Source: Isoetes taiwanensis
Lineage: Eukaryota; Streptophyta; Lycopodiopsida; Isoetales; Isoetaceae
Assembly: GCA_021234155.1 (NCBI GenBank)
Contig: JAJEKV010000420.1
Span: 62,001 to 126,000, forward strand
Direction: 5' to 3'
Length of the DNA: 64,000 nucleotides
In this document: piece after piece, positions 12,033-61,740 of the stretch
Layout of the letters: each line of letters begins with the position of its first letter
How positions within the stretch are numbered: the stretch's first letter is position 1
The notes under the pieces: generated by a model
What the model saw: only the letters and a program-made list of their open reading frames with translations
Database searches by the model: none
Told to the model about the DNA's origin: nothing
Translations under genes and position numbers: made by a program

Positions 12033-12149
12033 ACTAATGTACAGTTACTACTATTAATCTCTTAATCTCTAGTTTTCTTCCAGTTCAAATCTGATTTTGT
12101 TGTCTTTTTTTCTTTTCTGTAGATCATTAATTATCTCTTTCGCTCAGTA

Positions 12150-13076: not shown

Positions 13077-13384
13077 TCCTCTCCAACGCTGTTCAATCTC
13101 GTAAGATTATGGGATTAAATTGTAGCTTGCGATCCAAAAGAGTAGATGAACTTATATGAAGGCGCTCGACATCGCCCAGGCGCATGCTTCTTCCCTGTTC
13201 TTCCGAGTTCTTCCCAGTTCTTTCGAGTTCTTCGAATGGCAAGAAAGGCTGACAGCAAGATTAGGTGGCAGTTTCAAATTATCTGTTAACTGTACTGCTT
13301 TTTTAGCAGCTGAGTGAAATCTAATTTTGACTTTCATAATATGGCGGTCGTTGAACCATTGACTGCTGGTACAATCGCATGCCG

Positions 13385-13564
13385 TCCATTAGGCGTAATC
13401 GTAAGATTTCTGACCGTTGATTTGAAGTCGATCCGTTAAATCTAAATAACCGCTTGCATCTATCAGATCGTCGATCTAAAGTCGATCCGAATGACACCCG
13501 TCGATCCAAAGTCAAATCGGCTAATCAAATCCGACCATCAATTGCTTATGGAAATCTATATAAG
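13385..13564. promoter_or_regulatory. Divergent promoter with GTCGATCC-type repeats and TATA box (copy 1)
   Basis: Repeated GTCGATCCG/CGTCGATC words (about 13425-13515) precede a CTATATAAG TATA-like box (13556-13564) on the plus strand. The ParB-like gene starts about 120 bases downstream of it, and the DUF8039-like gene lies on the other side. The arrangement is conserved in copy 2 (47204-47395), which supports a real promoter. Confidence 0.6.
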
Positions 13565-13601
13565 TTTTTGAATTTTATTTCTTGTTTTTTGATTGCAGAC
13601 T

Positions 13602-13680
13602 TGCTCCGAGACGCTCAAGAACTCAAGAAACTCCGAGGCGCTCAAGAACTCAAGAACTCCGAGGCGCTCAAGATCGTCCC
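13602..13680 (+). repeat. Leader repeats upstream of the ParB-like gene (copy 1)
   Basis: Three imperfect copies of a CTCCGAGGCGCTCAAGAACT-type unit lie between the TATA box and the start codon. Copy 2 has the same leader with fewer units. This is probably transcribed 5' UTR. Confidence 0.75.
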
Positions 13681-13684
13681 AAAA

Positions 13685-16600: not shown

Positions 16601-16847
16601 TTTTTATTTTAAGATTGTGTGTTGTTCTTATAATAATCTATTTTAATAGGATTAGAGCGTGAAAGGATCGATTAAGGGACCGAAGCATTGGGATTGATTG
16701 TAAATTAGGCAAGCTTAGGTGCATGTGAAGTTAACACACGTGGTGTATGGCTTATAAAAGATCCAATATGTGATGTACTAATGCATTCATGAGGCCTTGC
16801 AAGATGAACCATCATTCAATTAAATTGGGATTATATCTTAACTAGAA

Positions 16848-30150: not shown

Positions 30151-30299
30151 TCCCATTTGCCTAGACACAAATCTTTCTAACTGATTTTAAATCTGACGCT
30201 CTAAAATGGAAGTTCTGAAATGCAAAAAATCAAGGGTTAAGATTGCGCACAGACTATCACAAAACTCCTTTATTATTATATATAGATTTTGGGACAAAT

Positions 30300-30760
30300 T
30301 TCATATTGCATGTTTTTAGTAGCATGTTCAAATTCACATATTTCATGTTGAAATTATGAAGAAGTAATGTCATATTACTTGGAGAACAGACAATATTTTG
30401 TAAAATAGCACGATATCATATATAAATCTAATGAAGAAAGTATATCCACCTTGCAAAAATCATTCTAGCATTTATATAGTAACACCGAGTCATTTCCACA
30501 AAGCTAGAGCTATCACACGGCGAATATATATATCGTATATATCACATTTAAATTGCATCCATGCCAAACATAATTTTATATACCAAACCAAAAGCCAATC
30601 AAAAGAGTAGTATCTAAATTAGAAATATGTAAAAGAGCTGAATAAAGAACTGTATCAAATTTATATATTATTTTCATCTCAATGCTCCAGGATTATAATG
30701 TCATAAATTTGAAAAACTTGCCAATTTTTTTTACATATTTCAAGTTCTATGTAAATGACA
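30300..30760. other. No recognisable gene
   Basis: Very A/T-rich sequence with no feature seen. Confidence 0.4.
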
Positions 30761-30762
30761 CA

Positions 30763-30916
30763 TGATTTTTTGGTGAAGTTTATGTCTATTATGAATAATT
30801 TGGCTATGGGGATGACAGTGCATGAAGTGTTAAATTCACACCCAGAACTAGATAGAACGGCTGACATGGAACCACACCTTGTTAAATACGTGGAAAAACA
30901 TGGATTGATTCTTTAA
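30763..30916 (+). pseudogene. C-terminal fragment of a diverged composite-element protein
   Basis: The frame encodes DFLVKFMSIMNNLAMGMTV, then HPELDRTADMEPHLVKYVEK and a stop. It aligns with the C terminus of the methyltransferase-like gene of copy 2 (EFLVLFMSIMSGLASGKTV, HPELDQTKEMDPYLESYLTK) with many substitutions. It therefore represents a third, more distant family member. A small coiled-coil frame about 1 kb downstream (32006-32236) may belong to it. Confidence 0.7.
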
Positions 30917-31228
30917 TGTTTTATTGGAATATATGATATTTTTATATGATATTTGTGTCATGTATCCATAATTTCGGGTCTCCAATGGCCTCACAAATAA
31001 TATAATCTGCTATTATCTAACCTATTATTTTCTTCTTAATACTCTTCAATTTTGGTGTCATCTATCTTAGCAACTTGCCCTTCATTTTTGTATATTTCAA
31101 TTTGCATCTGAAATGACACATGGGAATTGCAACTTTATGTTATTTATCAAGTCCAAACAAAAGATTAAAAAAAAAACAAAAACCCCCTAGAAGACACCAG
31201 CAGGTTGGCGTGATTTTGGAGTTGAATA

Positions 31229-34743: not shown

Positions 34744-36591
34744 GCATGGAAAAAGATGAGGGAACTTACAGGACATTTGATATCATCCGAGATCAGCAAA
34801 ATGCAGCCATTGAATGTATGGGTATCAAGAAAGAGGGTCAGATTCTCGCCTGTCAGCAAGAAATCACCAGACTGGAGAGACAATACGCCGAGGGGAAAGC
34901 CAATGACAGGGATCTGGTCTGGAATATGATAAATAGACTCCAAGACCTTGACTTATTGCTCTATCAGATGATTCGAGTCAAGTCCGGGCACTCCAAAGAA
35001 GACTGCTGCAGCCTCAAGAACCAAGTCTTCAAAAAATCGATGACCGACCTTCTCCAGACAACCAAGGACCTGGCAGAGGACTTAGAGCTCATGGAATGGA
35101 AATCTAAGGCTACTTTCCGACTGGTTCGGGTATGGGAGAGTGCAGATGACCACAAGATAATTGAATTCAAGGAAAAATTCAAAGAAGATCTGTCCTTGAT
35201 AGCTGCAGAGGAATTAAAGAATGTGAAAGTAGATTATGACACCTTCATGCACAAACTTGAACCAACCAAGGAGTGCATGATCAGTGATAGCAATGGCTAC
35301 TTCAACCCCCGAGATGCAGGAGAATGCCCTTGTCCCAATCAGTAAAAAGTAGTCAGCCTCCACTTGGACAAACGGGTCAACCAAGATCTCGATTCCAAGC
35401 TTAGGTCAAAGATTCCAACTATGGGCAAGTATGACAAACTAAATGGTACGTCCCCTTCATTCAAAAATGTTCTTTTAAATTCTGATAGGGGAGAAAAGAG
35501 TAATAAAAAACAGGAAAATGACACTTATACTAAGGGGTCTCAGGTTGATCTTTTTGCTATTAAGGATAATGAGGCTAAAGTAAAATACTCTGCTAATGGG
35601 ATTATGATTCATTTTCCTGCTAAGTGTCCTAACATAAGTGAGGTTAAGCATTGGTTTAACAGAGCCATAAATATCCCCATTCTTTCCATCCTTAGAATGG
35701 ACTCCAAAACCTACCAAATCTTATGCGAGACAAAGAATCACGTAAAAATTATGCTCACAAGGAAAATTTCTTCCATAGCTAATTGCCGGTCTACATTATG
35801 GACCTGGAATCCCTCTATATCCCCGGCAATTTTTCTGGTGTTGCCACTACTACTTGGGTTTCCTGCCCAAACCTTCCCCCAAATTTCTGGACTCATAATC
35901 ACCTTACTGCTATAGGAAGCTGTCTGGGGGAAGTTGTCGATATTTCTATCCCACAAACCGACTTCCCCTCTATCTGCATTTTGAAAGAAATTGAATCTGA
36001 CTGGGAGAAATTCATTGGTACCAGGATTGATGAAGACATCTTTCTAGATGTTGTAATCAAGTATTCCAAAATTCCTGTCAAAAAGGAATATAAGGAAGAT
36101 AAAGCCCCCCCTGATAAAGGAAAGGCTCCAATGTACCCCCCCAGCCTAAAAAGGTTTGGGTTCAGAAAAAGCCTAACAGTAGCAAGCAAGAGGGAGATCT
36201 CTGCAGTAGAGGGGAAACCAGCAAACAAAGGAATGATAATCCTATAAACATCATTCCTCTTATGATCTGCTGTGCTAATAAGGTGAATAACATTGAAAAT
36301 ATCAAGGCAAATAATGTGATTATCGAGGAGATTGAAGAGATGAAGGATGACAAAGCTTTAGTTATAACAGAAGAAGTTTTGGAAGAAATTCACTATGTTT
36401 ATGATAGTGACCATTCTGAACAGCACTTCCTAGAGCAGGGGATTGAAAGGGACCTAGATAAAGAAGATGAAAAAGGCTCTTGGGAACTGGTCACATCAAA
36501 CAGAAAAAAGAGAAATAAAAAACAAACCTTTGAAGTCTCAAGGAGAAGTTCAAGGGTCCAGAAAAAAAAAACCGATTTTTATGGATATTAA
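34744..36591 (+). pseudogene. LINE ORF1 (DUF4283-type), frameshifted
   Basis: ORF1 proteins bind the LINE RNA. The first frame (34744-35345) is an acidic, heptad-rich helical segment. A second frame (35364-35915) leads by frameshift near 35.79 kb into WVSCPNLPPNFW and IGSCLGEVVDI, the typical end of a DUF4283 domain. A third frame (36262-36591) is acidic, then Lys/Arg-rich, and ends FYGY at a TAA. The stop overlaps the ORF2 start (ATG at 36581), the usual L1 arrangement. No CCHC knuckle is seen. Two or more frameshifts make it non-functional here. Confidence 0.75.
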
Positions 36592-39500
36592 CTTTAGATG
36601 TGTATCTTGGAATCTCCAAGGTATTAATTCAAATGTCAAACGAGATAGGCTAAAAGTTTGCATTTCATCCATTAATCTTGACATGATTTTCTTTTCAGAA
36701 CATAAGCTTCATGATGATGATTTTGAGAGGCTTATAGCTAACACCCTTCCTCCTAATTTTAGACTTTGGGCTATTAGGGCAAATAATAACTCTGCAGGTA
36801 CTTCTATAGCTTGGAAAAACAGTTTAAATATATCCAACATTCAGATGATGCATGGCAACTGTGGGAGATGGCAAATTCTCCATGGAGATCTCGGAACCAA
36901 AAGGTTTGCCTTTGTCAATATCTATGCTCATAATCAGCCTGGTGAGAGAAGTCCCATGTGGAATATAATCAGAAATAGCTTAGCTAATATCCCTTATGAT
37001 AACTGCATTCTTGCTGGTGATTTTAACATGGTTACTCATGATTTTATGAGGAGTACTAACTTTAGACCTCTCCTCAACCAAGAGCAGAATTCTTGGGGGC
37101 ACCTTATCTCCATGCATGATCTTAAACTGGCTAGAACTCAACCAAATACTTTTAGCTGGTTTAATCAGAGAATTGATGACCCTATCCACTGCCTTCATGA
37201 CCGTTTCTATGTCAGTGAGAACCTTTGGAACCAATGTGATAGGGTTTCCAATCTAAATGGCTTTACTATCTCTGATCACTTTCCCCAGTTGCTGGAAATA
37301 AGAGGAGACACCTCAAATGCCAAGAGAAAATCCTACTTCAAATTAAATGTCTCTCTTCTTGATCAGAATACCTTTCTTCCTGAATTTGAACAGGTTTATA
37401 GGAAGACCCCTAAACCTAGAGATCAGTTCGGATGGATGGAATGGTGGGTGAAAACTGCCAAAAATATAAAAAACTGGCTCAAAATCTGGGGTAAGCAGAT
37501 TTATAATCAAGAAAAGCAGTACCTGGTGGACTTGAGAACTCAACTCCAGCAAACTCCCTTGGATCAGCAAGAGAATATAAAAATTCAAGTTGAGAGAGAA
37601 GAACTCAAAATTGCTAAAGGTTGGAAGCTAAAAGCAAAAATCAGGGAACTTAAGGATGATGAGAGGAGTAATTCCAAGTATTTCTTTATCAAAGCTAAAG
37701 GGAGGGCTAAGAGAAATCAGATCTATAGTGTAAAGGTCAATGGCAATCCCATCTCTGAGGACAATGATCTTAAACAAGCCGCTTTCTGCATCACTTTTAA
37801 GAGAATAATGGGAACCTCTCCTACTACTAGGGAGGAGAATATTGACAATTTCATTCAGATTCAGAGATCCATCCAAGATGAGCAGAATGATAGCATGAAT
37901 GCTCCTTTTACCAATGAAGAACTGTGGGCAAATGTTTCAGGTATGGAAAATGGTAAGACTCCGGGTCCTGATGGCCTCCCAGTGGAATTTTTTAAAAAAA
38001 CTTGGAATATTATTGGAAATGAGGTTACTAATGTGTGTAATGAGTTTTTAATTCTCAGGAATCTAGACTGCAGAATCAATACCAGCTTCATCTCCTTGAT
38101 CCCTAAAATAGATGAACCTGAAACTTTCTCTGATTTCAGACCCATATCCCTCACCAATGTTATTTATAAAATCATCTCTGCTACCATAGCCTCTAGACTG
38201 AAACCTATTCTGGATCTCACCATCTCCAATACCCAAAGTGCTTACCTAAAGGATAGGTCCATTCTAGATAATGTTGCCACAGCTATCATTGGCATGCATT
38301 GGGCTAAAGAAACTAAACAGGACATTGCCCTGCTCAAACTGGATATTACTAAGGCTTTTGACACGGTCAGCTGGAGTTTCCTTTTCAAATGTTGTCAAAA
38401 GATGGGGTTCTCCCAGGAAGTGATAAGTATTTTTCAAGCCATCCTCTACAACTCAAGATCCTCGGTTCTGATCAATGGAGAATGCAGCCCTTTCTTTGAG
38501 ATAAAGAGAGGCGTCAAGCAAGGTTGCCCTCTCGCCCCTTTTCTTTTTCTTATAATCATGGAAGCCTTGAATTGTGCTTTCAAAAAAGCTGACCAGGAGA
38601 AGAGAATTGTGGGACTCAAACTTCCTGATAATCAAGAGGCATGTTTTTTCCTTAATGCTCACTTTGCAGATGACACTTTTCTCTTTGTCACTATGGAAGA
38701 AAGATCCATCACAAACACCCAAATTGTTCTCCAAGACTTTGGAAATTGCTCGGGATGTAAGATCAACCCTCTCAAATCCAAGCTCATTGCAAGAAATCAG
38801 GTAAAAGGGCAGCAAACTGCCCAAACCCTTGGCTGTGAGTATCTCTCCCCAATTATTAAATCTAAAATCTTGGGTATTCCTTTTGCTTTAAGGACTAATG
38901 CTAGTAATCTTTGGGGGGATATTATTGAGAAATTCCACAGAAAGGCTGATCTCTTAAACAGTAAATATCTGTCCAAAAATGGAAGAGCTATCTTAGCCAA
39001 CTCGGTTATTTCTTCTTCTCATGTTTACCAGTCTTCTATCCTCTTAGCTCCTAAAAAGGTCACTTCTAAACTCCAGGGCATTTTAGGTAGATTTATTGCT
39101 AGTGGGGGTAGCAATGTAACCACGGGTTCCGTTTCCATGAAAGAATGTATGAAGAAAAGGAAGCATGGTGGTCTTGGAGTTCGATATTGAGAAACAAGGG
39201 CTGGCCCCGGGTACCAAATACATTTACAGAGCTGGCCATGATGAGATTAATCACCCTGTGTCAAAGCTTATTAATCATTACCTTGCTAAGTGTAAACCCT
39301 TCGGGTGGAGAAATGTGAACATGCACCTCCCTGAAAGCTTATTCTTTGATTTCAAGGTTCCTAATAATACTCCTCGAATCATTAAAAGTGGATTAGAGCA
39401 TGGAAAGCGATTAGCGAGGATGTATTCTTGGAAGGAGGGCCTTTCTAAGGATCAAACAATTTTTTGGAACCCCTCTCTAATTCTAAATAACCCTGACATC

Positions 39501-40833: not shown

Positions 40834-41872
40834 GTAGAATGCTTGCTTCGGTTATGCTAGATTGCATTTTCGCATGCTTCTTTTATGGACAAATAGAGGT
40901 GTTAAGTTAATAGGCTGCATTTTCTCTTAAGGTAGTTAATGCTTTTTCTCCTTTGTAGGAAGCTGCAAACAAGGATGGCGAAGAACCTTGATGCAATCTT
41001 TATTTCTGATTGTATGTAGGCCATCTCTGGCAGTGTGAAATGACTGAGGTGGTTGTAGATGCTGGAGAGAAGATAGAGTAACACATGTCGTACCAGTTGC
41101 AGATGGCTATGTAATGGGGAGCAGCATCAAATCTATGCATGTTGATCTTTGGCAGACATGTTTAGGAACGAGGTGAGCCCGTACCACCTGAGGATTCATT
41201 TGAAGTGGCATGGAAAGTCAAGGAAACGTATGGTTACACTTGTGCTGACATTGTCAAGGTAGGCTATTTCTTTGTCCTTATTTGGCTATTTACAGTCCTA
41301 CCCAAGGTCCATTCAAATTCATCAGGATGAATGCGTTAATTTTTGAGCAACATTTTTCCTTTTGGGCCCTGTAAATTTCAATTTGTGTGCACAAATGCAG
41401 GAGTTTAACAAGCATGATAAGGAGCCTGCAAAGTATATAAAATGCAAAGGGTCGGGCGTAAATTCCAAAAAACAGGCGGATATATGTTTGTGAGATCGGA
41501 TATGAGCGTTTTCTTGCACCAGAGGTTTGAGTGTGGACCTTTCTTATGTTTGAATGAAAGGCAGGCCGTTTTATACTGCTCCAATGGCTGCAATCTGTTG
41601 TAACATAGCTGTGAAACTTTGAACAGAATCAACAATTGTTGGCAGTCAAATTTTCACTTTCTTTTTTTTTTTTTTTTTTTCTCTTTTCATAGGTGTTCTT
41701 CTCTCCAGAGATTTATAGCGGTGACTTATACTGTCCCTCTCCCAGACGCTGTATATAAATGCATACAAGCATCACCAATAGACACAACACATGCTTTATA
41801 CAAGGTTGATTCATTTTTTATAAGCCCCATATCTGGGATATAGTAGCAGTGAAAACTTGAAGCTTTTCTTAT

Positions 41873-41903
41873 AACCATCATTCATTTAAATTGGATTTAT
41901 GTC
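41873..41903 (+). repeat. Left 31-bp terminal inverted repeat, copy 2
   Basis: Begins AACCATCATTCATTTAAATT. It is identical to the reverse complement of 53563-53593. Confidence 0.97.
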
Positions 41904-42130
41904 TGTTCCAAAAGCACGCCACTTTTGCATACCCTTTTCTCAATATAGTGTTTTGTTGTGTGACATGCTGTTTTGCATTGTTGCAAATTTTTGCATTGTA
42001 GTACTGGGTGGTTTAACATTTTCTTATTTTAGTGAGAAGAATGTGGTGTTTGATTAGCATTTGTAGATAACAACACATCAATATACAGAGAACACTTTTT
42101 ACATTGTATTCACTTGATATGAAGATTACA

Positions 42131-44950
42131 TCATGTAGGGACTAGTCCTTTCTTTGTCAAATAACTCTCAAGATAGGGATCCATCTCCTTAGTCTGATCT
42201 AGTTCTGGATGCGTTTTGACAACATCTGATACTGTTTTACCAGAAGCCAAGCCACTCATGATGGACATGAATAGTACTAGAAACTCAACTGTTGAGTAAT
42301 CTTGTGGAGTATAAGTTGGTGGATTTAGAGACTGACCTTGATTATAAAAGCACTTAAGAGCATCATCATCTACTATTATGATGTCCTCTTTCTTTTGAAT
42401 GCCAAGCTGATCCATCATAGTACCAAGATGTTTCACCTAAGACCGGTTTGCCATCCGGATCTCTTGGATGTGGAAACTTTATACACTTACTTTGGTCCCA
42501 AATCGTCACAAAGTCTCAATTCATGCCCGGTAACACCCTAAGTACTTCATCAACATTTTGCGTTCCATTGAGGACCGGATGGCAACTCAAACAATCTGAA
42601 CGCCTCATTCATCATATCTTCTAAGTGTGGACGAGGATAGATCCACTTAGTATTCGATTCTAGAGGGACTTGCTCAAGTCATCACTGTTAATAAGCTTCT
42701 TAGGAAACATTTTACACAAAGACACCATTCGATCGAAGACAATGATTTTGTCACAAGCGGTGGAGCCCCGAACCATGGAAAACAAAGAGTTAGCCATGCA
42801 AAAGTGTTCTCAATACACGCCAAGCGCATTTTATCCTTCATAACAAAGCTACATATCGGCCGGGCGTGAATTACCTTTCATCGCCGCCGCCATCCCAGCA
42901 GATCTTTAGCGTCTACTTCACTCCCCCGGATGCTTATCGAAGCATGAACGCCACCGTTAAGTTCGGGATAACGTTCTCTTCTATGAAAGCTACCACGGGG
43001 GTTTGATTCCTAACCTCGGTGGTTGCATCCGAGCTTGCATGATCATCCTGGCTGGTATCAGGAACTGCCGCACTCGTACCCCCAACCTAAACATTACGAC
43101 CTCCTGGAATGTTATCAAGCATGGACGCCAAATTTTTCTCCATGCTCTCACGTTCCCGCTCTAGCATTTCGGCCTTCTCCTCGGGGTTGCATTGCTTTTT
43201 GAACATTCTCGAGTTGCACTCGGAGGCTTTTGTGAACTAGTATTCCTTACGCCCCTTCGTAGAAGGTACCAAAGCCAACACTTTTTATCTTTCACGGGAC
43301 CCCAATCAGCCGTGGCTAGTACCTTTTCGAAAAACACTTCAAGGAAATCCCCGGACTGGTCATCGTTGGATCTAAACTTAAACATCTTCTTGATGTCTTG
43401 TGGCCTCTCTACCAATATACCCTCCAACATGCAATTCACAGCAAGTGGTATCAAGTGGTGCAAATGCCTCAACAAGATAGCTTGCCAGATTGATTGCAAA
43501 CCCATGTTTATTCAAGGGTCCCTTTTCTTTTGTCAGCAATTCCAGAGTGATGTCTTTGCGGTAGAGGTTAGGAACATCAAATTCCTCGCATTCATTTTCT
43601 TCATCCTCATCATCCGCTTTGTAGAAGACATTTTTCAAGTTGGGTTCATCGAAGAAAACACCGCCATGCACCTTTTATCCGATGCCCCTTTGCTCTTAGC
43701 TACCTCATAGTCGCTATCCGCACAAGGGATATCATTATGAAGATTATACAAGCGCTTTTATCTTTGATCCTCAAATCAGTATCCTTTGTCTCAAAGAGAA
43801 GAGAGCCTTCCCTAACGACCTTTAGGCATTCCAAGTCGTATGAAGCCATCAAAGCATGCATATGAGGCTCTCCTGGGGGGCATATGATGACAATAGTAAA
43901 GAGTTTCTGAGTTGTTAAGCCTATGTAGCTACTAAAAAAACTGTTGTACTCCTGTTGAGCCATCCCCTTCTCTCCTTTTGCAGTCCTGCTATCCAATACA
44001 AATAGAGAAATATTACGAGGGCCTATTGTTGTATCGGGTAGAAGACCTTTATAGCCAGTAGAGACCAGGTATTGGAGTGCAGGTAAGTCACCACCAACAT
44101 CTTCTAGGACGGCAACCTTTCTTTTGAGCTCAGCCATCACCTTAATTTGATAGCTTTGAGGTGTGCTGTTGGTTCTTTGATTTCCTGTTTTACAGAAATT
44201 CCTTCGACCAAAAGACGTATTTCTTGATGTCATCAGCAGACACGCCATACTTGTCTAGCAGGCCGACTTCAGACAATGTTACATCACCGGATAGCTTCAA
44301 GTTCTTCACCAACCGCTACCTTCATAACTCGCATGTTCTTTATATGAGTGCAACAATCAATGAAGGACATTTTGTCCTTAACTGAAGAAGCCTTCTTGTA
44401 CAGAACTTCTTTGTTTATGCATTGATTTAACAACCAAATGATTTCATCATCTTGGAGGCCCTGTACTTTCCTCATCTCGGTAGTCTTGAGATCAAATATT
44501 GAAGTATCTTGAGGAGGCACTTTCGTCCCATTGGGTCCGGTAGCTGTTTTCGAGCATAAGCATCCGAACTTCGTTCCACTTCGCCCCGACTTCGTCCTTA
44601 AGCTAAGACGCATCTTGTAGGCATCTGAGGGACCTCGAAGCCGCCGCACGCCTCACCGCTTCCTCCCCCTTTTTTTTTTCTGCTTTTTGGCTCTTGGTTT
44701 CCTATCTTGGATGATAGTCCGAGACAAGGTCTTTTCCAATGCCTTAAACTCCTCGGACTTTGTTCCTCCCTGTTTTGTTTGCGTGGGTCTTCCATATTCT
44801 ATCCATTCTTTGGCGGGGCATGACGGAGTTGTTCCACGAAGGGTCGCGACGTGTAAGGAAAGCATGTCACCCAATATGAGCAGGGGCATACAAAAGTTAA
44901 CCGCTTTTAGATCAAGCAAACGGGATAATCAGGAAACGCCAAAGTGATGC
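42131..44950 (-). pseudogene. Methyltransferase-like C-terminal half of the ParB-like gene (copy 2)
   Basis: Frames run right to left and are broken by indels. A Lys-rich linker (44.65-44.92 kb) and a helical region (44284-44460) come first. Next is KGLLPDTTIG and FTIVIICPPGEPHMHALM (about 43.86-43.92 kb), which resembles motif IV ((D/N/S)PP(Y/W)) of beta-class amino-methyltransferases. Then come an acidic insert (YKADDEDEENECEEF), NKHGFAINLASYLVEAFAP and LHVGGYIGREA (about 43.40-43.44 kb), and NDDQSGDFLEVFFEK. The last block resembles motifs X and I, where the cofactor-binding glycine-rich loop sits. The order IV before I is that of the beta class. The C terminus (42131-42436) ends TKKGLVPT. 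The motif residues are not canonical, so the call is tentative. The target would be adenine or cytosine N in DNA or RNA; this cannot be decided. Confidence 0.5.
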
Positions 44951-44954
44951 GTTG

Positions 44955-45350
44955 CCAATCCTACCGGGCGTGTATTCATCCCGACATTTGGCGGACGAAT
45001 ACACGCCAGCGGAACCGGCAAAAAGATGAATACACGCCAGTCGCGGTCGCTACTGGGGTGTATTCGTCATGAACAGCAAAGATGAATACACGCCAGCGCC
45101 AATTGGCAAGCCATCGCATTCGCTACCGGGCGTGTATTCGTCCGCTGATGAAAATGCGTTCATTGGCAATTCGCTACCGGGCGTGTATTCATGCTATTAA
45201 AATTGTAAATTGTTGTTCATGTGCTCCATGGCCTCGAGGCCCAAGTGAGCATTAGACATTATATAATAATAATAATAATAATAATACCGCGGACGAATAC
45301 ACCCGGTGCGAATTGGCAAAGATGAATTCACGCCAGGCGCGAATTGGCAC
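44955..45350. promoter_or_regulatory. Array of palindromic GAATACACGCC/GGCGTGTATTC sites (copy 2)
   Basis: At least nine half or full sites occur in about 390 bp: GGGCGTGTATTC at about 44967, GAATACACGCCAG at 44997 and 45028, GGGGTGTATTCG at about 45056, and GAATACACGCCAGCGCC at about 45084. Then GGGCGTGTATTCG lies at about 45128, GGGCGTGTATTCATG at about 45179, GAATACACCCGGTGCGAATT at 45294 and GAATTCACGCCAGGCGCG at 45324. Orientations alternate and spacing is irregular. The array lies between the ParB-like and methyltransferase-like coding parts, possibly in an intron. Confidence 0.75.
45261..45286. repeat. (TAA)n microsatellite
   Basis: ATAATAATAATAATAATA run inside the palindrome array. 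Confidence 0.9.
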
Positions 45351-45454
45351 GCCTTGACAAACGCTGGACCTACTCTACTACTGTTATTGCTACTTGATAT
45401 ATCTGACTCTATTCCACCAAATATACTAACCTTTTATAAAGAAAGACTTCGCCC

Positions 45455-47093
45455 ATTTCGTTCAATGTTGCACTAATCTACGCGTGTCCTCTGGGGTAGG
45501 GTATGGGGGCTTAGAAACCGACACCTCCCGTGGTTGTAATGCAGCCAGATACATTGTTTGCCGGTTTTGCTTAGCCTTGGTTGGATAGGGATCAAGCAGC
45601 CTCAATAGAATGTTGTCCGTCAATAATAAGGAAGCATACATTAGGGTTCTCCACGGTTAGCTCTTCTAGTGTTGTCCACTGGAGTGGAGCATCCTTTTTC
45701 TTATCCCAAGGAAGCACGTCTGCTGGCATAGGAACTTGGCCTGGATTCCTCACCATCGCCCTCAATATTTCTCTTGCATGCTCAGGGTCATACCTCCTGC
45801 TAACAAGACTTGACTTATGTGATCTCACCGCACGGTCAACATGGATGGGATGTGTAAAAGATTGGCCAAGTGGGTAGTTAATCCGTGATACTTGACTAGC
45901 CTACTCATTGCCTCCACCGCAATTTCTTTTCGAGTCATTTTACGCCAAAATGCCATCAATCAAGTTGGTAGCGTGGGGATGTCCTTTCCTAAGTCCAGCA
46001 ATCTTCGTACATCCCTGATATCATTTTGATGCTTCATCTCCTCCAGGTAGTAACTTGGAGAAGGTCCTTGCAAAGCTCTCCTCACTGCGGACACCCCTTC
46101 ACTAATAGAAACTGGATTGAGGACAGTATTTTGAGGCCATCCGTACTTGAAACATGACTCAGCACTCACGTCCTTCTTCATCAGACCATCTTTGAAAGCA
46201 GTTGCCCTGGCATGTGTAAATCTGACGAGATCTTTCTTGTGGTTCTTCACAACCTCCACTAGGAGTTGACAACAGATGTCATCCTGCTCCTCACAAGTGA
46301 TAAGAATACCTTGTTTCTTCATAAGATCGGTCTCTTTCTTTCTGGAGTGTAACACAAGATCCACCTTACCATTTGTTTTGCCTACATCAACATACCACTC
46401 GGCACTGTCATCCATCTTCTCCTCGAGGCATGGAGGATCTGTGTCTGCTCTGATAATGGATCCGCTATCATCCATCGACAATGCATAGGATACTGCGTCC
46501 TCATTGGGCTTTCCCTTCTTCTGTGAGCTGGAGCTCGCTGGAGTATCTTCCGAGCCTCTTGCTTTCTTAGGAGGAGGTGTAGGAACAGTCATTCGGTTTT
46601 GTCTCTTCTTCCCTGCAAACGACGGTGCAATACACGCTTAGCGCGATTTCGGGTGGTCATCAATTCCGGCCAGGCTAAAGCACCGAATGGCATACAGTCC
46701 CCAGTTACAGACATGCACTCATAAGGCGTGCCAATTACAGCATGCCGACCACACAGTCGAAGGCAGGCCAACTAAACACGGTCATACTACTTTACAAATT
46801 ATAGACATAACAGTTAATCACGAGCAGGACAATTTAACACAGGAAGGACATTTATTATGCAGATGCAAATACAAGTCACAGCAGAAATGAAACGACTAAA
46901 AGAAATGATAGGCGAGTGTATGCCTATAGAAATTTAAGTCACTGCTACAGAAATAATAGACAGGAGCATAGGCAGAAGATACAGAGCAATGAACAATAAA
47001 TGAATAACACACAGAATGATGACAATACTGACCTTGAGCATCTTCTCTCACGGCCCGGCCTGAGTTTGGAGCAACACGACCATTGGGCGGCAT
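45455..47093 (-). pseudogene. ParB-like N-terminal half of the composite-element gene (copy 2)
   Basis: Exon 1 (47093-47033) encodes MPPNGRVAPNSGRAVREDAQ and ends at a GTCAGT donor. A 420-bp intron ends GTTTGCAG. Exon 2 (from 46612) continues in phase with KKRQNRMTVPTPPPKKARG, which looks like a nuclear localisation signal, then a conserved domain (SAEWYVDVGKTNGKVDLVL; FTHARATAFKDGL; FKYGWPQNT) to a frameshift near 45.96 kb. The next part (45592-45900) has PLGQSFTHPIHVDR, RRYDPEHAREIL, PADVLPWDKKKDAP and FLIIDGQHSIEAA. In ParB/sulfiredoxin-fold proteins an IDG(E/Q)HR motif is followed by Ala-Ala; here the Arg is Ser. ParB-type domains bind nucleotide and partner with DNA sites in bacteria; that role is inference here. 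After EAA the frame has a TGA and further indels. Confidence 0.62.
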
Positions 47094-47203
47094 CTTCGCG
47101 ATGATCTTGAGCGCCTCGGAGTTCTTGAGTTCCTGAGCGCCTAGGAGTTCTTGAGCGTCTCGGAGCAAGTCGACAATCAAAAAGCAAGAAATGGAATTCA
47201 AAA

Positions 47204-47395
47204 ACTTATATAGATTTGCATAAGGCGATTAGGTCGGCTTTAGATCGACGGGTTTCATTCGGATCGACTTTTCATCGACGGTCCGATAAAAGCGAGCGGT
47301 TATTAAAATATCGCGGATCGACTTCTAATCGACGGTCCGATAGAAGGGAGCGGATATTTAAATTTTGCGGATCGACTTTTAATCGACGGTTAGCA
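47204..47395. promoter_or_regulatory. Divergent promoter with 54-bp tandem repeats and TATA box (copy 2)
   Basis: GGATCGACTT...ATCGACGGTCCGATA units begin at 47261, 47315 and 47369 (period 54 bp). A TATA-like box CTATATAAGT on the minus strand (47204-47213) lies about 110 bases upstream of the ParB-like start codon. The DUF8039-like gene diverges to the right. The corresponding region in copy 1 keeps the TATA box and related GTCGATCC words but less regular repeats. Confidence 0.65.
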
Positions 47396-47448
47396 ATCTT
47401 ACGATTGGGCCTAATGGGACGGACGCGATCGATCGACGAAAGCGATAA

Positions 47449-48018
47449 ATGGCTCTCCTAACCACCGTATTGTCAAATCCCATAATTAGATTTCACTCAG
47501 CGGCTAGAAAAGCAGTACAATTAACGGATAATTTGAAACTACCACCTAATCTTGCCGCCAGCCTTTCTTGTCATTCGAACTCGAAAGAACTTGGAAGAAC
47601 AGGAAGAACTCGAAAGAACTCGGAAGAACTGGGAAGAAGCCGACGCCTGAGCGATGTCGAGCGCTTTCATGTAAGTTCATCTACTCTTCCAGAACCCAAG
47701 CTCCAAATTAATCCCATGATCTTGCGACATTGAACAGCGTTGCGGAAGAATGCTACATCTTCGAATTTTAATTTGAAGAGGAGGGTGGGAAATTGCAAGA
47801 TAGAATCGGTCGATCGGAAGCACCGCCATGGAGTTCCTCTTGGAAATGATCATGTGAAGATTCTAGTAACCAGTTGCCATTTCAACGACGAAGCATTACC
47901 CAGAAGGCATCCTGATGGAGACACAGTGGGTGAAAGCATCGGAACCTTTGTTGCATGGCCAGTAATTCGCTTAAAGAAGGTGAGTTTCATTTTCTTGGAA
48001 GACATAGAGGAAGATTGA
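47449..48018 (+). CDS. DUF8039-like protein (copy 2)
   Basis: The well-conserved part (47740-48018) reads HRHGVPLGNDHVKILVTSCHF, DEALPRRHPDGDTVGESIG, TFVAWPVIRLKK and an acidic end. This resembles the C-terminal half of the DUF8039 domain seen in plant transposon proteins. An upstream frame (47449-47733), rich in Arg/Ser/Glu from GAAAGAACTCGG-type repeats, may be its first exon; the joint is not certain. It is transcribed opposite to the ParB-like gene from the same spacer. Conservation of the frame in both element copies, although in opposite genomic orientation, supports a real gene. Confidence 0.52.
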
Positions 48019-48217
48019 GTGCTCATACTAAAATGCACAAACTGATTCCGTCATATGTATGAAATCATTCATTCAATATTGCAAAAATATAAGGCCTGCA
48101 GACCAGAGCATTCATGAATTCAAAAAACACTGTTTTCTTTACATGGATGGGATATTCTTTACATGGCATTCTTTACATTGTTTTAATTGCATCTGTGTGT
48201 TATTTATCTAGGTGTTA

Positions 48218-48598
48218 TTAATCTGTGTGTTGTTCCTCAGTAGTCTCAAATGCTGGCACAATAGTCTCAAATGCTGTTGAAAAAAGATAAACTGACATAC
48301 AAGATTCTGGCAAATAAAATAGTGCAGCTTTGAGGTCTGCAACTCTAATTATCAGCTTAGCATTTTCCATTTCAAGCCCCTCCATAGCACGGCCATGAGC
48401 TAATACCAAGCACCATGAGCTAATACCATTCAGTTGTAATTTAAATGCCATGCTAATTACTGTGTGTAATTCACGCCAGGCGTGTATTGGACTGCTTGAC
48501 AATTTAAACATTTTGTACACAAACATATTTCGCGCCTGGCATGATCTCACTTCAGCTCTCTCAAAATTAAGAATGAAAGATCGAATTAGATAGATCAA
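48218..48598 (-). CDS. Small coiled-coil protein of the composite element (copy 2)
   Basis: The segment RAMEGLEMENAKLIIRVADL followed by LPESC matches the heptad-rich helix of the copy 1 protein (12150-12581). The N-terminal half of this frame differs and overlaps palindromic sites at 48467-48545, so the true start is unclear and the gene is probably broken upstream. Confidence 0.42.
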   Translation of the reverse strand: MIYLIRSFILNFERAEVRSCQARNMFVYKMFKLSSSPIHAWRELHTVISMAFKLQLNGISSWCLVLAHGRAMEGLEMENAKLIIRVADLKAALFYLPESCMSVYLFSTAFETIVPAFETTEEQHTD

Positions 48599-49066
48599 AG
48601 CGAGAACTTCGAAAAGGGAGTAAGTCGGGCATGAAACAAGATCCGGTGGCTTAGTCTCTTTTGCTTCTCTGTTTTGTGTATCTAAAGTGCCCCCAGGATG
48701 AGATAAATTTCGCTCATTTTAGGGGACACTTTAAATATATAAAAGCAAGGGAACAACGTAAAGAGAGTAAAAAGGTCCGGAGCTTATTTAAAAAAGCAAA
48801 GCATAGTTACAATCAATTGTGATTCATTTCGGGTTTAGAGCATGGTGCCGTTTACTAATTCAGGTCTAAGCTCGTTCAAAGAAGTGAAATCCGCGCCAGC
48901 GCCGAAATAGGTTTGTGTGCAAAATGTTTACATTGTGCGAGGTCCAATACGCTGGCGTGGAACCGCATAAAGCTAATTGCGTGTGTAATTCACGCCCAGC
49001 GTGTATTGGACCGCTTGACAATTTAAACATTTTGTACATAAACATATTTGGCGCTGGCGTGATCTC
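48467..49066. promoter_or_regulatory. Palindromic sites between coiled-coil and acidic ORFs (copy 2)
   Basis: AATTCACGCCAGGCGTGTATT at about 48469-48488 is nearly perfect. TTTCGCGCCTGGCATGATC lies at about 48528. GAAATCCGCGCCAGCGCC lies near 48886 and CCAATACGCTGGCGTGG near 48944. AATTCACGCCCAGCGTG lies near 48988 and TTTGGCGCTGGCGTGATC near 49047. A segment of about 110 bp bearing two sites is duplicated (about 48440-48560 and 48960-49080). Confidence 0.7.
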
Positions 49067-49127
49067 ACTTCTCTCTCTCAAAATTAAGAATGAAAGAGCG
49101 AATTCAAAACAGTTTCTGAAGAAATTA

Positions 49128-49371
49128 CAGTTATGCTTTCAAGTTAGAGTTGACACTAAAGAAATATATTGCAGTCATTAATCCTTGTATTGCCATTGAA
49201 AATTTTTACATAAGGCCTTTTATTAGAGTTGCCAGAATTCAAAGCGACCTGCCGAGAAATTAGAGTTACGCTTTCAAGTTAGAGTAGAAACTAAAGAAAC
49301 ATATTGCAGTCAGTAAATCCTTGTATTGCCATTGAAAAATTTTACATAAGGCCTTTTATTAGAGTTGCCCA
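49128..49371. repeat. Tandem duplication, about 130-bp period (copy 2)
   Basis: GCTTTCAAGTTAGAGT, ATATTGCAGTCA, TCCTTGTATTGCCATTG and ACATAAGGCCTTTTATTAG occur in the same order twice. Confidence 0.9.
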
Positions 49372-49471
49372 GCTCTGTGTTACAAAATTACAGAAGTTCT
49401 AGGCAGTTTAAGGAGATGCCTAGCTCGCTCTTCTGAACCAAAAACTAAATAACAAAAACAAAACAAAAAAA

Positions 49472-49915
49472 TCAGCCCTCTACCTCCTCCTCTTCTTCCT
49501 CTGAGCTTTCATCTGCCATCCTCGTCAGGATGTCTTCGGCAACATCTTCATCATCGGAGGAGGAGAGGGCGTCCACAATCAGCTGCTTTTTTTCTTCTTC
49601 TAATTCTTCCTGCCATTCTTCATCTGCTTTCTCCATTTCTTCTTCTTTCTCAATCTCGTTCTCCATCTCCTCACCTGAATCAAGGGGAGTATGGGGACTT
49701 CGGGGCGGCCAGGTTGGTGCTCGGATAATCTTTTCGAAGCTTGCCCCAAAAAATAACTCCTCGCAATTATCCGGTTGTGGTGCGGAGAGCAGCCACAAGC
49801 GGCATCTGCGGGGGGGAATGGATTTCTTTATCAATTTTTTACTGCCTCTTAAGCCTCTCGGAGGCGAAGTCCGTGAGGATGGAGCGGGGACGAGGCGGGC
49901 AGCATGGCTCACCAT
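49472..49915 (-). CDS. Small acidic protein of the composite element (copy 2)
   Basis: An intact 147-codon frame starts at MVSHAARLVPAPSSR. The first 60 residues are basic and Pro/Ser-rich (RGSKKLIKKSIPPRRCR). The last 70 are Glu/Asp-rich with coiled-coil potential (EEEMEKADEEWQEELEEEKK) and a SSSDDEDVAE block. The start is the first ATG and matches the (damaged) start of copy 1. The gene is divergent from the DUF7869 gene. No domain is recognised; a chromatin- or protein-binding accessory role is a guess. A Ser-rich open frame on the plus strand is its shadow. Confidence 0.6.
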   Translation of the reverse strand: MVSHAARLVPAPSSRTSPPRGLRGSKKLIKKSIPPRRCRLWLLSAPQPDNCEELFFGASFEKIIRAPTWPPRSPHTPLDSGEEMENEIEKEEEMEKADEEWQEELEEEKKQLIVDALSSSDDEDVAEDILTRMADESSEEEEEEVEG

Positions 49916-50084
49916 GGTAGAAGGAAGAAAGGAAGAAAGGATTGGCACTAGAAGGAAGAAAGGATTGGCGGTTGAAAGAATGGAGGGTTTCTTATAAAGC
50001 GGTTGTAATTATGATTCCATCACATCATACAAGATTTATATCATATCTGAATTACCTATCATTACTTCTATTGAATTAATTCGC

Positions 50085-50320
50085 CCTAGGTTATCATAAT
50101 TCTCTATAGAATTACCCACATGTCGACTATACTTAAAACCTATGTTTTCATTAATTTTGTATAATTACCTAGACCCCAGCTATACTTACAACCAACTTTG
50201 GCCCATCTAGATTCACGACCTATACTTACCTCATTAGTACTACTAGCATACACCCTATGTTACCATTAATTTTGTAATAATTACCTACGCCTGAGCTATA
50301 CTTACAACCTATTTTTGGCT
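50085..50320. repeat. Subterminal tandem repeats, about 120-bp period
   Basis: ATTAATTTTGTA, AATTACCTA and GAGCTATACTTACAACC-type words recur at about 50150 and 50268, with a weaker copy at about 50085. They lie in the divergent spacer between the acidic ORF and the DUF7869 gene. Confidence 0.65.
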
Positions 50321-50568
50321 GCACTTACAACATATATTTGTCCATTTAATGGTTTTCTTGGTATTTCTTAAAGTTCCCTTTAATCGGTTCTCAAAATTAC
50401 TTTGTCCTTTTTTCTGACTAATATTAAGACATTTCACTTTATATAGGTGAAGCGTGTGGATCCTAAAAAGGGTAAAAATGTAATGCCTATCCCTCCAACA
50501 TGTTTCAAGATTGTTACCACATGTTCTTATCATATTGTTACCCCATTGTAAACATTGTTCTTGTAGGT

Positions 50569-53415
50569 CAATGTTGTGGACCTCCCAAAGGGTGTTGAAT
50601 TTGAGACTACTAAGCAAATTGTCCTCTACGGTAGGTTGGATTGGAAGAATAAGAAGGTGAAAGTGAAGCACCAATGCAATAAAGAGCTAGTAGGTGAAGG
50701 GACTATCATACTAGCTGATCCTATCCAGGCTGTCAATGATGAAAGGTTAGGAGAGGATAAAGTGGGTGTGGCCATAACAAGTTTAGAGGAAAAATGGAAG
50801 GAAAAAGGATCAAATCACCAGGATTGCACTGCTTGTATTAAACAATTGGAGGTTCCATCGTCATGCCATGGCCTATAGCCTGCATTGAGTTTATAGGAGA
50901 ATTCCTTTTACCCGAGCGAGAGGTTGTGGATGACATTGATTTTCTTAATGCACCTCCAATAGCTGCCAGGACCACATTTTTGAGAGAAGAGGGCACACTT
51001 TCGGTGGTGAAACAGTATCCTAGCAAGAGGTCCAAGTCAAGTAGTGACCATTCACGTGAAGCTTCGACTAAGGTAAGGGGAATGGAATGTTGTTGGGCTA
51101 ATTGTGTTGAAGTTTGAAATTGATGAATTGGTGGAAGCAAGAGCCACCTTCCAAGAGTATACTTGTGATGAGAGGAGGACTTACATGTACTCCATTCATG
51201 AGCTTGCACTTCAAGATGAAAATTTCCAAAAAAAAAAATACCAATTGCTAGGGATATGGATATGTAAAGTTGCATGGATACATATTCATGGCATTCCAAT
51301 TTCATCTTGGCAAAATTGGCAAGCAAGTCATGCAAAGGGGAGTAAAATTGCATTACATGGAAATAATGGCATGTTGAGGCCAACTTCTAGGATCCTGGCT
51401 GCTAGGGAGGTTTTTGAAAAATATGTTGAATTCAATACTGAGAATATGCCACATAAAAGTAGGAAAGATCAACGGGGAAAAATAGTTGTCGAGAAGAGAT
51501 TGCCATCCCATTGTACCCGAAGAGCATATTGGAGGAAGTGAATGCTTTGCTTCGAGAACTCTGTGTACTGCAATATCTCAACCCAGCTTCAGTAGACTAT
51601 GGAGCAAGCACTTCAAGCATGTCACTATAGACACTTCGAACAACTTTGCAAAGTGCAACTTGTGTGCTAAGTTGAAAGAGTTTCTTGATAAGACCAAGCA
51701 ACCAAGCCAAAGGGCTAAGATAAGGGAGCAAATGAAAGATCACATGACAGACCAACTATCATGTAGATCTACTTATTGGATGTGGAGAACATTATCATGT
51801 TTGGAACCCAATAACTATGTTTGTATTATACATGACAAGATGGATCAATCGAAGACTTGTTTGCCACAGTATAGTTACATACCCAAGCAAATCAATAGAG
51901 CTTATCCTTTGCAAGTCTCTCTGACAGGTGCAATAGTGCATGGCAGGGTGCCAATTTATTATGGCCATTTTAGTTTGCAATTGTGGAGTGATGGTCCTGA
52001 TTTTCATATTGGAAGTGTGATGAGGTGCTTGAGGAATGAGAGTGGTTATTCCGGTGACCTCTACAACCCTGGAGGTGGTAGCCAACCACTCTTCAGTGCA
52101 TTGTTGGATAGAAAGCCTAATAATTTAGAGAAGTTTACTAAGGCAAGGTTTAGGAAGTCAGGTGCTTCTGAACATGTTGGAGCCTCAAGTTCACGTCCCC
52201 AACCTCGAGATCTACCACCAAGGTTCCTCCTCCAACTTGACAATTGTGCTGGACAGAATAAAAACAGGTATATGTTCTCATTCCTATCTTATTTAACAGT
52301 AGTGGGTGTCTTTGAAAAGAGTGAATTTAGGGTTCTTAATGCTGGACATACTCATGAGGATGTGGATGCATTGTTTGGGAAGTATAGTCTTGTGATTAAA
52401 ATCCCAAAGCGTGACCAATCTTCCTAGACTAATGGAAGTTCTTAGTGAATGCATTTCACCTTCTCCTATAGGGTTGATCATACAAGAGGTGCTGATTGGA
52501 AGAATTTTATCGAAGGTTATGCTCTTGATATGGAAGGTCAATCTAGACCTCTTCATTACACTTTACGGGTCATGGGAAATAAGCCAATCATGCAATGGAA
52601 GATGAGACCTTGAGGATGATAAATGGAGGCGGATGAGGGAGTACCTATATGGCACGAAGATGAAAATGGTAAACCTAAGATTCCAAGGGGTCAACCAAAA
52701 GCTCTTAGGCCTTTTCCAGAGGTGGATTCATTGCAAAGCACATTGGGCGGCATTTACGAATACATCAAGTATTGGAAAAATAACCCGATCATACCAACCT
52801 TGCATTGATAGATTATTGGACACGGTACATGGATTATTGGGACAAGTAGACACATCCTCCGATGAACTCAAAGATGGATGGCTACCTAAGACTAGGTGGA
52901 GAGACTTGATATTACCCGAGGAAGGCTGATGATGTGGTTAGTAGTATTCGCAAGTCCATGGCTCCTCCAATTTCTTTGAAAAACACTATGTTGGTCCTAG
53001 GAAAGGAAGGCCTAAATATCTTGGGCTGGAGGATTATGATCCGAAAAGATGACTTGCTTTGCCATCAATTTGCACTTATAGTACCAGGAAAAAAAGAGAT
53101 ATACCTGTGTGGATGGGTTACACCATCTCGAGAGGTTTGCAAAAAGTAGGTGACATAATGTGAACAAAGTTAGGTGTGGAGTGGTGGTGTCGTGCACCCA
53201 GTTAAATGCTGATGTGAGAGGAAGAAAGGTATAGAGACTGTTGGACAAAGAAATGGAAGAGAAACCCTATTGAAGGGGATGATTGGGTTGAGTTAGATAC
53301 TATTTTGTTTTCATGGACCCCAAAGGTCATCCCAGGCAAGACTGCTAGGGTTACAATACCCGTGGAAGTGAGGAAGAAAGCTATGATATTTCTAGGGGTC
53401 AATTCTGAGAAGTAA
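50569..53415 (+). pseudogene. DUF7869-type putative transposase (copy 2)
   Basis: This is the best copy of the likely mobilisation gene. After a CTTGTAG acceptor (50568), an N-terminal exon (VVDLPKGVEFETTKQIVLYG ... DKVGVAITSLEE) and MPWPIACIEFIGEF resemble a DUF8039-like fold. The next part (from about 51117) has ALQDENFQKKKYQLLG, KIALHGNNGMLRPTSR and MPHKSRKDQ. The main frame (51486-52427) carries SKHFKHVTIDTSNNFAKCN, HDKMDQSKTC (51.83 kb), YYGHFSLQLWSDGP, LLQLDNCAGQNKN (52.23-52.27 kb) and GHTHEDVDALFG (52.34-52.38 kb). The spaced Asp/Asp/Glu-Asp residues look like an RNase H-type active site; this is inference. Frameshifts near 51.53, 52.43 and later break it. The C-terminal part ends at a TAA at 53413-53415, 150 bp before the right TIR. 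Confidence 0.82.
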
Positions 53416-53562
53416 TTGGCAATATGTAACTCGACATGCATATGTGAAATATTTTTAATTTTTAATGCAATCATGTTGTGCTGTTATAAAAAAAAGTCAC
53501 ATTCTCGATGCAAATTTACTAACCCAGGAAAAAGTTGCAGTGCCAAAATGGTCCAAAATCCT

Positions 53563-53593
53563 GACATAAATCCAATTTAAATGAATGATGGTT
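53563..53593 (-). repeat. Right 31-bp terminal inverted repeat, copy 2
   Basis: Exact reverse complement of 41873-41903. It is followed by TTAT and, 38 bp later, by the next ARP3 exon. Confidence 0.97.
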
Positions 53594-53931
53594 TTATTTA
53601 GTGAGAAGTTATATGGTTTTTTGGTCACTTGCAGAATATTGTCCTCTCAGGTGGCTCAACAATGTTCGACTTTCAAAGGAGGCTTCAACGTGATATAAAA
53701 AAACTGTTGATGCTCGTCTTGCAGCTTCAACAGCTCGGTATGTTGAGGAGATCAAGGTAAGGGGTTATTATATGTGTGGTCTGATTTAGATTATTTACGT
53801 GCGGGACAGGAATTTTAATTTTTGGCTTTTCAAAATGTGGAGTTTTGTTTATTCACCGAAATGCATAGACTGCATATTGTTGGATATTGCTTCTACGGTG
53901 TAGTTATATTTTTTTCCCTTGTGTGTTTCAG

Positions 53932-60451: not shown

Positions 60452-60866
60452 TAGGACCCGAAGGGCCCAAAATTTTTTTTAGTATAACAACCAACACATA
60501 ACTACCATTAACATTAATTAATACAACCATTGGGTCCAACACATTTAAATTAAAATTCCCCTTAAACCCCCTTTGGTTTGGGTGCATATTCAAACGGGGG
60601 GTGACGTAGAGCAGTCAAGAGCCCTTATAATTATATTTTGCACGTAGAAAATCAACACCATATAGTATTTTGCTTGAAATCTTATAGTATTTTGCAAATC
60701 TTGTTAGACAGTATAGCAAATTTTTTACTTGCATACCCCACAAACGAGGAACTTTACGTATGGTGTAGATTAAGGAATAAGGGGTGAATATGCCTATCCA
60801 ACAGCTCTAGTTTCCCGGAGTCAACCCCCATGTGAATATGCACCCAAACCCAATTTAATCCCAATT
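60452..60866 (+). repeat. Foldback element, complete but diverged copy
   Basis: It begins at the GACCCGAAGGGCCC hairpin and a T-tract. The left arm is at about 60566-60605 and an inverted right arm at about 60815-60850 (GTGAATATGCACCCAAACC), enclosing the core with TATAGTATTTTGC words. Confidence 0.8.
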
Positions 60867-61740
60867 TAATTAGATGATGGTTCATGTGCCTATTGGGGAA
60901 GAGCAGTGGGAGGTTCACCTTAATCCTGAGATGTATCTGGTGTAGGTAATTACTCGTGAAAAATCTCTCCTCATGTCATGAAGCACATTAACAAAGATGG
61001 AATTATTGTTGTGAGTCTACATAACTGTTGGTGCCATCCCCAGATATATAACGAGTTTATAACCCTATACCCTAAGTCAGATCTGATTAATCCAATCTGC
61101 AAATGACCGGAGATCGATGGGAGGTTTGACCATTGACATCTTGCGTCATCTAATGAGTGAGATATTCATGCCCTCTATCTTCGAGAAAAGATACGAGCCC
61201 AACCATTTCTCTCCTCCTCCTTCCTCAGTCCTAACCTGGTAGATGTGTACATTAGTTAGGGTTTATGGTGCATTGCATATTACAGATGTACTTAGATGCT
61301 CAATTTTATATCTCTTTGTGTATGTGTGTGTATGTGTGCGCATGTCCGCGTGCACGGGAGGTCCAAGTCTACGACAAAAAGATGTGGATAATGACTAGTG
61401 GACAACATGTAAAAGAAGAAAAAGAAAAACAAGATGTTGACGCATCACAAGGTTACCCTTTGGAAAAATGCGGTTCATATTTTTTTCATAATATTTTTTC
61501 ATATGGGGTATTTTGAAGCTAATACGAATGTAACAGATGACAAAAATTGAATGGATGTAATTGAAAAAGGGAGGCAAGTACCATATAAAAAATGGGAATA
61601 TATGTCTATGGAAAAGAACTTGGTTTTTCAGCTATGCTCTCCAATTAGTTGCTCCTGGGACAAGGAAATGTAATATGATCCGCACAAGAGTATTTGACTT
61701 CAGTGATACTTCTTAATTCCTAAGTACATTATTTTCTAGA
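60867..61740. other. No recognisable gene
   Basis: A TGTGTATG-rich stretch lies at about 61310-61345. No gene was recognised. Confidence 0.35.

Follow-up and report, generated by a model that had tools for sequence, protein, structure and literature searches.

A numerous DNA transposon family of Isoetes taiwanensis with 31-bp inverted ends, a putative DUF7869 transposase and a conserved second coding block

Sola transposons combine DDD-type transposases and 4-bp target duplications with terminal inverted repeats (TIRs) of 11–1124 bp; most measure 2–9 kb, some exceed 15 kb, and they are present in Physcomitrella (PMC10741241, PMC9033089), with Sola1 recorded for moss (PMC9033089). Sola2 elements that carry an extra Fanzor gene have AT-rich 4-bp duplications (PMC3627910), and composite-like KolobokP transposons of animal hosts are described as carrying a homing endonuclease gene beside a DDD/E transposase (PMC9587614). 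Here, we describe an 11.7-kb element at positions 41873–53593 of a 64,000-nucleotide stretch (the window) of the Isoetes taiwanensis contig JAJEKV010000420.1 (C131:62001-126000 in the searched genome of 1,658,258,908 bases in 1110 contigs). With a probability of about 0.86, we read this element as a decayed copy of a large cut-and-paste family that has a DDD-type DUF7869 transposase and a conserved accessory protein.

The exact extent of the element is given by two perfect 31-bp TIRs (41873–41903, plus strand, and 53563–53593, minus strand), with the termini AACCATC, and by the unstranded 4-mer TTAT found on either side (41869–41872 and 53594–53597); a preliminary description of the window, made from its letters alone, had reported both features for the same 41873–53593 interval. 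Inverted identity ends sharply past base 31, the next 29 bp agreeing at only 4 positions. A degenerate pattern of the 31-bp end, covering family variants, matched the genome 1142 times in forward and 1189 times in reverse orientation (2331 matches in 1.66 Gb), and its reversed control matched 0 times. Each terminal 200-base segment of the element was found with 99–100% identity at 40 places, including the window (best 40 of 780 candidates for the first segment and best 40 of 606 for the last). Among 100 end matches listed, neighbors less than 30 kb apart formed 23 inward-facing versus 3 outward-facing pairs; 17 of the 23 inward pairs were spaced by 8–17 kb, including 8 spaced by 12.28–12.48 kb. 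The insert is thus one copy of a very numerous, multiplied DNA transposon family.

Copies with both ends and 4-bp duplications, which the preliminary description had expected elsewhere in the genome, were found in two sets. The first comprises the window element and 11 others; the TIRs are perfect in 10 of these 12 copies and agree at 30 of 31 positions in the remaining two. Eleven of the 12 have a perfect 4-bp duplication (TTAT, ATTG, AGCG, TTTT, TTGG, ATCT, TACT, CTTG twice, AGAG, and AAAT) and none has a 5-bp match; the two CTTG copies, both on C19, have common flanks, leaving 10 duplications in 11 independent loci, as compared to a mean of 0.09 and a maximum of 1 four-bp match when the flanks of these loci were paired at random. 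In the second set, ten end pairs outside the first, nine have a perfect 4-bp duplication (ATAA, ATGA, GATT, AGTT, CAAA, TATA, CCTC, AACT, and CATT). No evident target motif is shared by the duplications of the two sets. A divergent copy, C1019, has TAGT on either side, so that 21 of 23 copies show a perfect 4-bp duplication and 0 a 5-bp one.

The element separates two stretches of an ARP3-like gene, and the preliminary description had called both of them ARP3 exons. The right one (NIVLSGGSTMF...) matches Pfam Actin with E = 0.00095, under the family cut-off, and the left one (...CIQASPIDTTHALYK, then GT) has no Pfam match and is ARP3-like by eye only. Joined around one TTAT, the flank matches five further, insert-free loci, at full length in C1028, C302, C1035, and C1037 and over its positions 10–144 in C1041; its right part only is matched in C1027. 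Base-by-base alignment of C302, C1035, and C1028 found TTAT once in each, with nothing inserted there (a 13-bp tandem insert lies farther right in C1028), so an empty ARP3-like site, which the preliminary description had proposed to look for in a relative, exists in the same genome. The joined flank of copy C35 likewise matched without an insert at 40 of 40 places over 145–150 bases (best 40 of 1858 candidates), two of which were read base by base. The repeated ends, the 4-bp duplications, and the ARP3-like loci with a single TTAT together identify the family as mobile, with a target stagger of 4 bp. Several ARP3-like copies are thus present in the genome (C302, C1028, C1035, C1037, and C1041); both the window copy and C1028 are without three bases found in C302 and C1035, and the right exon of the window copy shifts into another frame, for which reasons this copy may not be the functional one.

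The plus strand of the element carries the DUF7869 gene, as the preliminary description had stated. Its coding region (50567–53415), delimited from the open reading frame (ORF) list and by homology to the divergent copies C423 and C1019, is spread over several frames in the window and includes a 313-amino acid core ORF (51486–52424, plus strand) that matches PF25273 with E = 1.2e-23 (84.1 bits; Pfam cut-off 26 bits). The match is stronger in C423 (E = 2.3e-36), and the homologous frames are open over 807 amino acids in C423 and 719 in C1019. An alignment of six sequences from two clades that are 27% identical contains invariant columns that include D117, M119, D120, Q121, K123, T124, D252, N253, N258, K259, N260, G287–H290, and D294; the candidate catalytic Asp codons lie at 51834 (D117; alternatively D120 at 51843), 52239 (D252, in LQLDN), and 52365 (D294, in GHTHxxxD). 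These acids resemble a DDD active site, suggesting that the DUF7869 protein is most likely the transposase. A probable 5′ exon of the same gene (HGVPLG...GTFVAWP...RLKK, then a GT donor) lies at 47734–47978 on the plus strand; it is TNP1/DUF8039-like, is conserved in C423 and C1019, and weakly matches Pfam Transposase_23 (E = 0.12–0.2). It would be spliced to the DUF7869 exons, and the DUF8039-like stretch (47.73–47.98 kb) is hence on the strand opposite to the divergent block in which the preliminary description had placed it.

DUF7869 is widespread in this genome: a search with the protein gave 12,697 first-look candidates (best 127 scored) and one with the Pfam family 9904 (best 150 scored), the latter finding 0 in 14 control genomes. 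No paper mentioning DUF7869 was found in the literature searched, which left subscription papers outside its scope. A second DUF7869 clade (L043–L048; 27% identity to the window's) has different sequence 3′ of the gene, and the 3′ flank of L043 contains the repeated motif TTTGCTCCCGTTTCAA. A bacterial collection gave 3 contigs among 114 pattern matches, which we took for eukaryotic contamination; L049:595-3435, on a contig of 4.3 kb catalogued with a cyanobacterial metagenome-assembled genome, encodes an open 947-amino acid DUF7869 protein (PF25273 E = 1.6e-42), and this contig is probably eukaryotic contamination. No relatives were found in viral contigs in three scans.

The divergent block on the minus strand, also reported in the preliminary description, proved to have partly different contents. 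Its 3′ part (42134–42837) encodes an NIF (NLI-interacting-factor-like, HAD-type) phosphatase-like domain that the earlier list of cargo genes had missed; its frame is broken in the window, where ORF 42134–42436 alone has no NIF match in Pfam, and the homologous region matches PF03031 in C1100 (7.3e-16; 58.7 bits, cut-off 21.8 bits), C423 (1.4e-13), and C1019 (1.5e-8). The middle pieces (43161–44652), several open stretches with 51–55% amino acid identity to C423 over the codons kept, have no family match in searches of Pfam, NCBIfam, PHROGs, and the Protein Data Bank (PDB). The first long exon (45592–46637) encodes a charged N-terminus and a ParB/DGQH-like stretch, open over 225 + 102 amino acids in the window and over 406 amino acids, with a GT donor at the end, in C1049; it has 4295 first-look candidates in the genome, many with frames of 380–408 amino acids without a stop (best 110 scored). 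We take the DGQHS/DRQHS stretch of this exon to recall ParB/DGQHR proteins, and the ParB-like label given earlier survives as a weak lead, with sub-threshold matches to PHROG ParB (E = 0.16) and PADLOC PD-T4-4_A (E = 0.0086) and no ParB match in Pfam, NCBIfam, or PDB. For the label "methyltransferase-like", which belongs to the middle pieces, searches of Pfam, NCBIfam, PHROGs, and PDB gave no methyltransferase match, and the acidic ORF (49475–50008) that had been counted as cargo resembles C1019 only through low-complexity repeat and has no match in C423. The block may be either one spliced gene or several.

Seven pairs of accessory and transposase matches lie within 20 kb of each other, all seven divergent and about 6–10 kb apart (best 110 of 4295 versus best 127 of 12,697 candidates); one further accessory match lies in the same direction as a DUF7869 Pfam match, 14 kb away (best 110 of 4295 versus best 150 of 9904). 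The remaining 102 of 110 accessory matches have no partner among the matches listed (best 127 of 12,697 transposase candidates), and most partners cannot appear there, since only the best 110 of 4295 and the best 127 of 12,697 candidates were compared. A different NIF-like ORF, open over 349 amino acids and containing DVNGVL (PF03031 1.7e-20), was found at C1032:10397436-10398482 (L052/L053), in a context with no tblastx match to the element at 1e-6. Of 151 NIF matches, 93 were compared (the 49 strongest and some partial ones were left out), and none of these lies within 20 kb of the transposase or accessory matches listed; many similar NIF matches suggest another repeat family that carries an NIF domain.

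The left block, the middle, and the DUF7869 region follow in the same order in 12 of 12 copies (blastn; identity mostly 85–95%, with segments at 78–99%). Large internal deletions are present in C157 and C35, the minus-strand block being much shortened in the former and partly in the latter, and C1040 and others contain inserts. The same layout extends to divergent subfamilies: C423, whose left end was not found, has tblastx amino acid identities to the window of about 40–70% in the minus-strand block and 50–75% in the DUF7869 region, and C1019, complete at 12,166 bp, has nearly identical ends and matches in both coding parts by blastn. Their transposases have 65–74% protein identity to copies of the window's family, and in C423, C1019, and each of the 12 copies the DUF7869 gene adjoins the right end. 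Because the layout is shared by 12 copies and two divergent ones, the divergent block is an old part of the family and no recent cargo.

Between subfamilies, the transposase has dN/dS (nonsynonymous to synonymous divergence) ratios of 0.14–0.23 over 290–696 codons and the lowest dN values (0.11–0.26 versus 0.27–0.44 in the accessory pieces), which shows strong purifying selection on DUF7869. These comparisons kept codons in 21-codon windows with at least 35% identity and dropped frame-shifted parts; for the accessory pieces only comparisons of at least 55 codons are given (the 13-codon NIF comparison of C1019 with the window was ignored). Since dS is saturated, and therefore undefined, in the accessory pieces, constraint on the block may be suggested only tentatively. 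Within the family, dN/dS is 0.42–1.27 (undefined for NIF between C1100 and the window), and most frames could not be located from the weak 3-periodicity of substitutions in the 12 copies. With its coding regions spread over several frames, the window copy was called decayed, subject to the caveat of assembly errors. The dense 1-bp indels of the copies stem from decay or else from errors in repeats that the assembly left unpolished, and would affect any pseudogene count in this genome. Two further arguments were dropped: shared frame-breaking indels as proof of mobilization in trans, the 1-bp indels being scattered and possibly assembly errors, and ends more identical than the interior, a biased comparison in that the ends themselves had served to select 11 of the 12.

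Under the reading we prefer, the DUF7869 protein would bind the common 31-bp ends, excise the element, and insert it at a target opened by cuts staggered by 4 bases; filling of the gaps by the cell would leave the 4-bp duplication. The divergent block, from its charged N-terminus and ParB/DGQH-like stretch through the middle to the NIF-like C-terminus, would encode a conserved accessory protein that may help or regulate transposition in the nucleus, e.g., by holding the ends together; alternatively, it may use its phosphatase-like domain to counter silencing or transcriptional control by the host.

Several observations weigh against this reading. No activity has been observed for the element, and two copies, C1090 in the first set and C24 in the second, have no duplication. 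Frame-breaking indels are present in the transposase of 12 of 12 aligned copies, some of them possibly assembly errors. A distant relative, L050, keeps D117 and has Ala at D120 and an altered LDN..NKN motif; it is for this reason that D117 seems likelier than D120 to be the first acid. An RNase H-like fold is unsupported, as two AlphaFold models of the DUF7869 core, both with few alignment rows, have a mean pLDDT (predicted local distance difference test score) of 40.8 and 36.6; DUF7869 also has no match among solved structures (best E = 0.026, chain 3lw8_E, IpgB2). The NIF catalytic motif is DxDx(T/V), and since the first motif of the block reads DLNGV in C1100 and C1019 and NLNGV in C423, catalysis by this domain is doubtful. 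The broken transposase frames, found although the ends are intact, and a DUF7869 function that is so far only predicted would also suit a passenger gene in an element mobilized in trans by another transposase. We consider this improbable: a passenger would hardly be expected to have the lowest dN between subfamilies, to keep transposase-like invariant acids, to adjoin the right end in every full copy and in both divergent ones, or to number in the thousands of candidates.

The preliminary description had called the element a composite transposon, and a recently captured multi-gene cargo would account for roughly half of the element lying outside the DUF7869 core and for an NIF domain in the C1032 context; neither position nor orientation of the block varies among the 12 full copies (two of which carry large internal deletions), C423, and C1019, and this single layout makes recent capture very improbable. 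Segmental duplication or an assembly artefact in place of transposition would fit the C19 pair, where common flanks and a common duplication point to a later duplication of one insertion; with perfect 4-bp duplications in 21 of 23 copies, locus-specific apart from this pair, and with insert-free sites in existence, such an origin is next to inconceivable for the family as a whole. The question of classification is much closer, and we see even chances that the family falls within the known Sola superfamily as a Sola1-like member, similar to those of moss, and that the accessory block alone is new. The DDD transposases, 4-bp duplications, TIR range, large sizes, and occurrence in Physcomitrella reported for Sola (PMC10741241, PMC9033089) speak for this placement, as does the Sola2 precedent of an extra gene (PMC3627910); the lack of an evident shared motif among the element's duplications speaks against it. 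Because a 4-bp duplication and a DDD transposase fit Sola, the label "undescribed" given earlier, and with it a superfamily of its own, is unproven. It seems rather unlikely that elements with DUF7869 and AACCATC ends form an early-land-plant superfamily of their own, apart from Sola, in which transposition needs a protein with ParB-like end binding and an NIF-type, possibly dead, phosphatase domain acting on host transcription or chromatin.

Other related sequences are present in the window. A second copy, real as previously described, occupies 6175–15674 on the minus strand, with its right end present and its left end missing, and a short derivative of a C1019-type element (30286–31228, minus strand) retains some 470 bp from the left end and 135 bp from the right, the outermost bases being unmatched. 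A further terminus, AACCATCATTCAATTAAATTGGGATTATATC, lies at 16807–16837 and has no partner in the window within the mismatch limits used; a weaker one lies at 60863–60882. Near the left ARP3-like exon, a 910-amino acid plus-strand open frame (36458–39187) resembles, by eye, a long interspersed nuclear element (LINE) endonuclease/reverse transcriptase.

Among the known groups, Kolobok, piggyBac, and Sola3 target TTAA, hAT and P elements make 8-bp duplications, and CACTA/EnSpm elements have CACTA/CACTG termini and 2–3 bp duplications. CACTA/EnSpm was ruled out by the AACCATC termini and the 4-bp duplication, and the TTAA families by duplications such as AGCG, CCTC, TTGG, and GATT. The same duplications ruled out Tc1/mariner, which targets TA (PMC10741241). 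Mutator-like elements (MULEs; duplications of 7–12 bp, PMC10741241), hAT, and P were ruled out, as 5–8 bp matches occur in 0 of 12 and 0 of 10 copies, and Helitrons, which make no duplication (PMC9033089) and lack TIRs, by the TIRs and the duplication.

DUF7869, which has thousands of first-look candidates in this genome, gains a testable identity as a transposase, tied to exact ends, a duplication length, and insert-free sites. Divergent subfamilies of this plant DNA transposon lineage have, moreover, kept a second block that contains a phosphatase-like domain, raising the question of why a cut-and-paste element needs it; no transposon with an NIF gene, and no Sola element whose second gene is NIF- or ParB-like, was found in the literature searched, subscription papers and, for the NIF gene, Repbase being outside its scope. 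CACTA/EnSpm and MuDR are large plant TIR elements with a transposase and an accessory protein, and the family described here resembles them in having a second gene, its 5′ exon also being weakly TNP1-like. KolobokP transposons share the pairing of a transposase with a second enzyme gene and differ in their animal hosts and in the nature of this gene, a homing endonuclease. The likeness to Sola, drawn by description and not by transposase sequence, comprises the 4-bp duplication (21 of 23 copies), TIRs whose 31 bp fall inside the 11–1124 bp range, a predicted DDD-type transposase, the possibility of large size, and occurrence in early land plants. Sola2 elements with Fanzor are also comparable, their group having 4-bp duplications and a further gene besides the transposase; whereas Fanzor was captured by some of them, the second block of this family is a different one and is kept in 12 copies and two divergent ones, and it is this conserved second coding block that makes the family unusual among cut-and-paste transposons.

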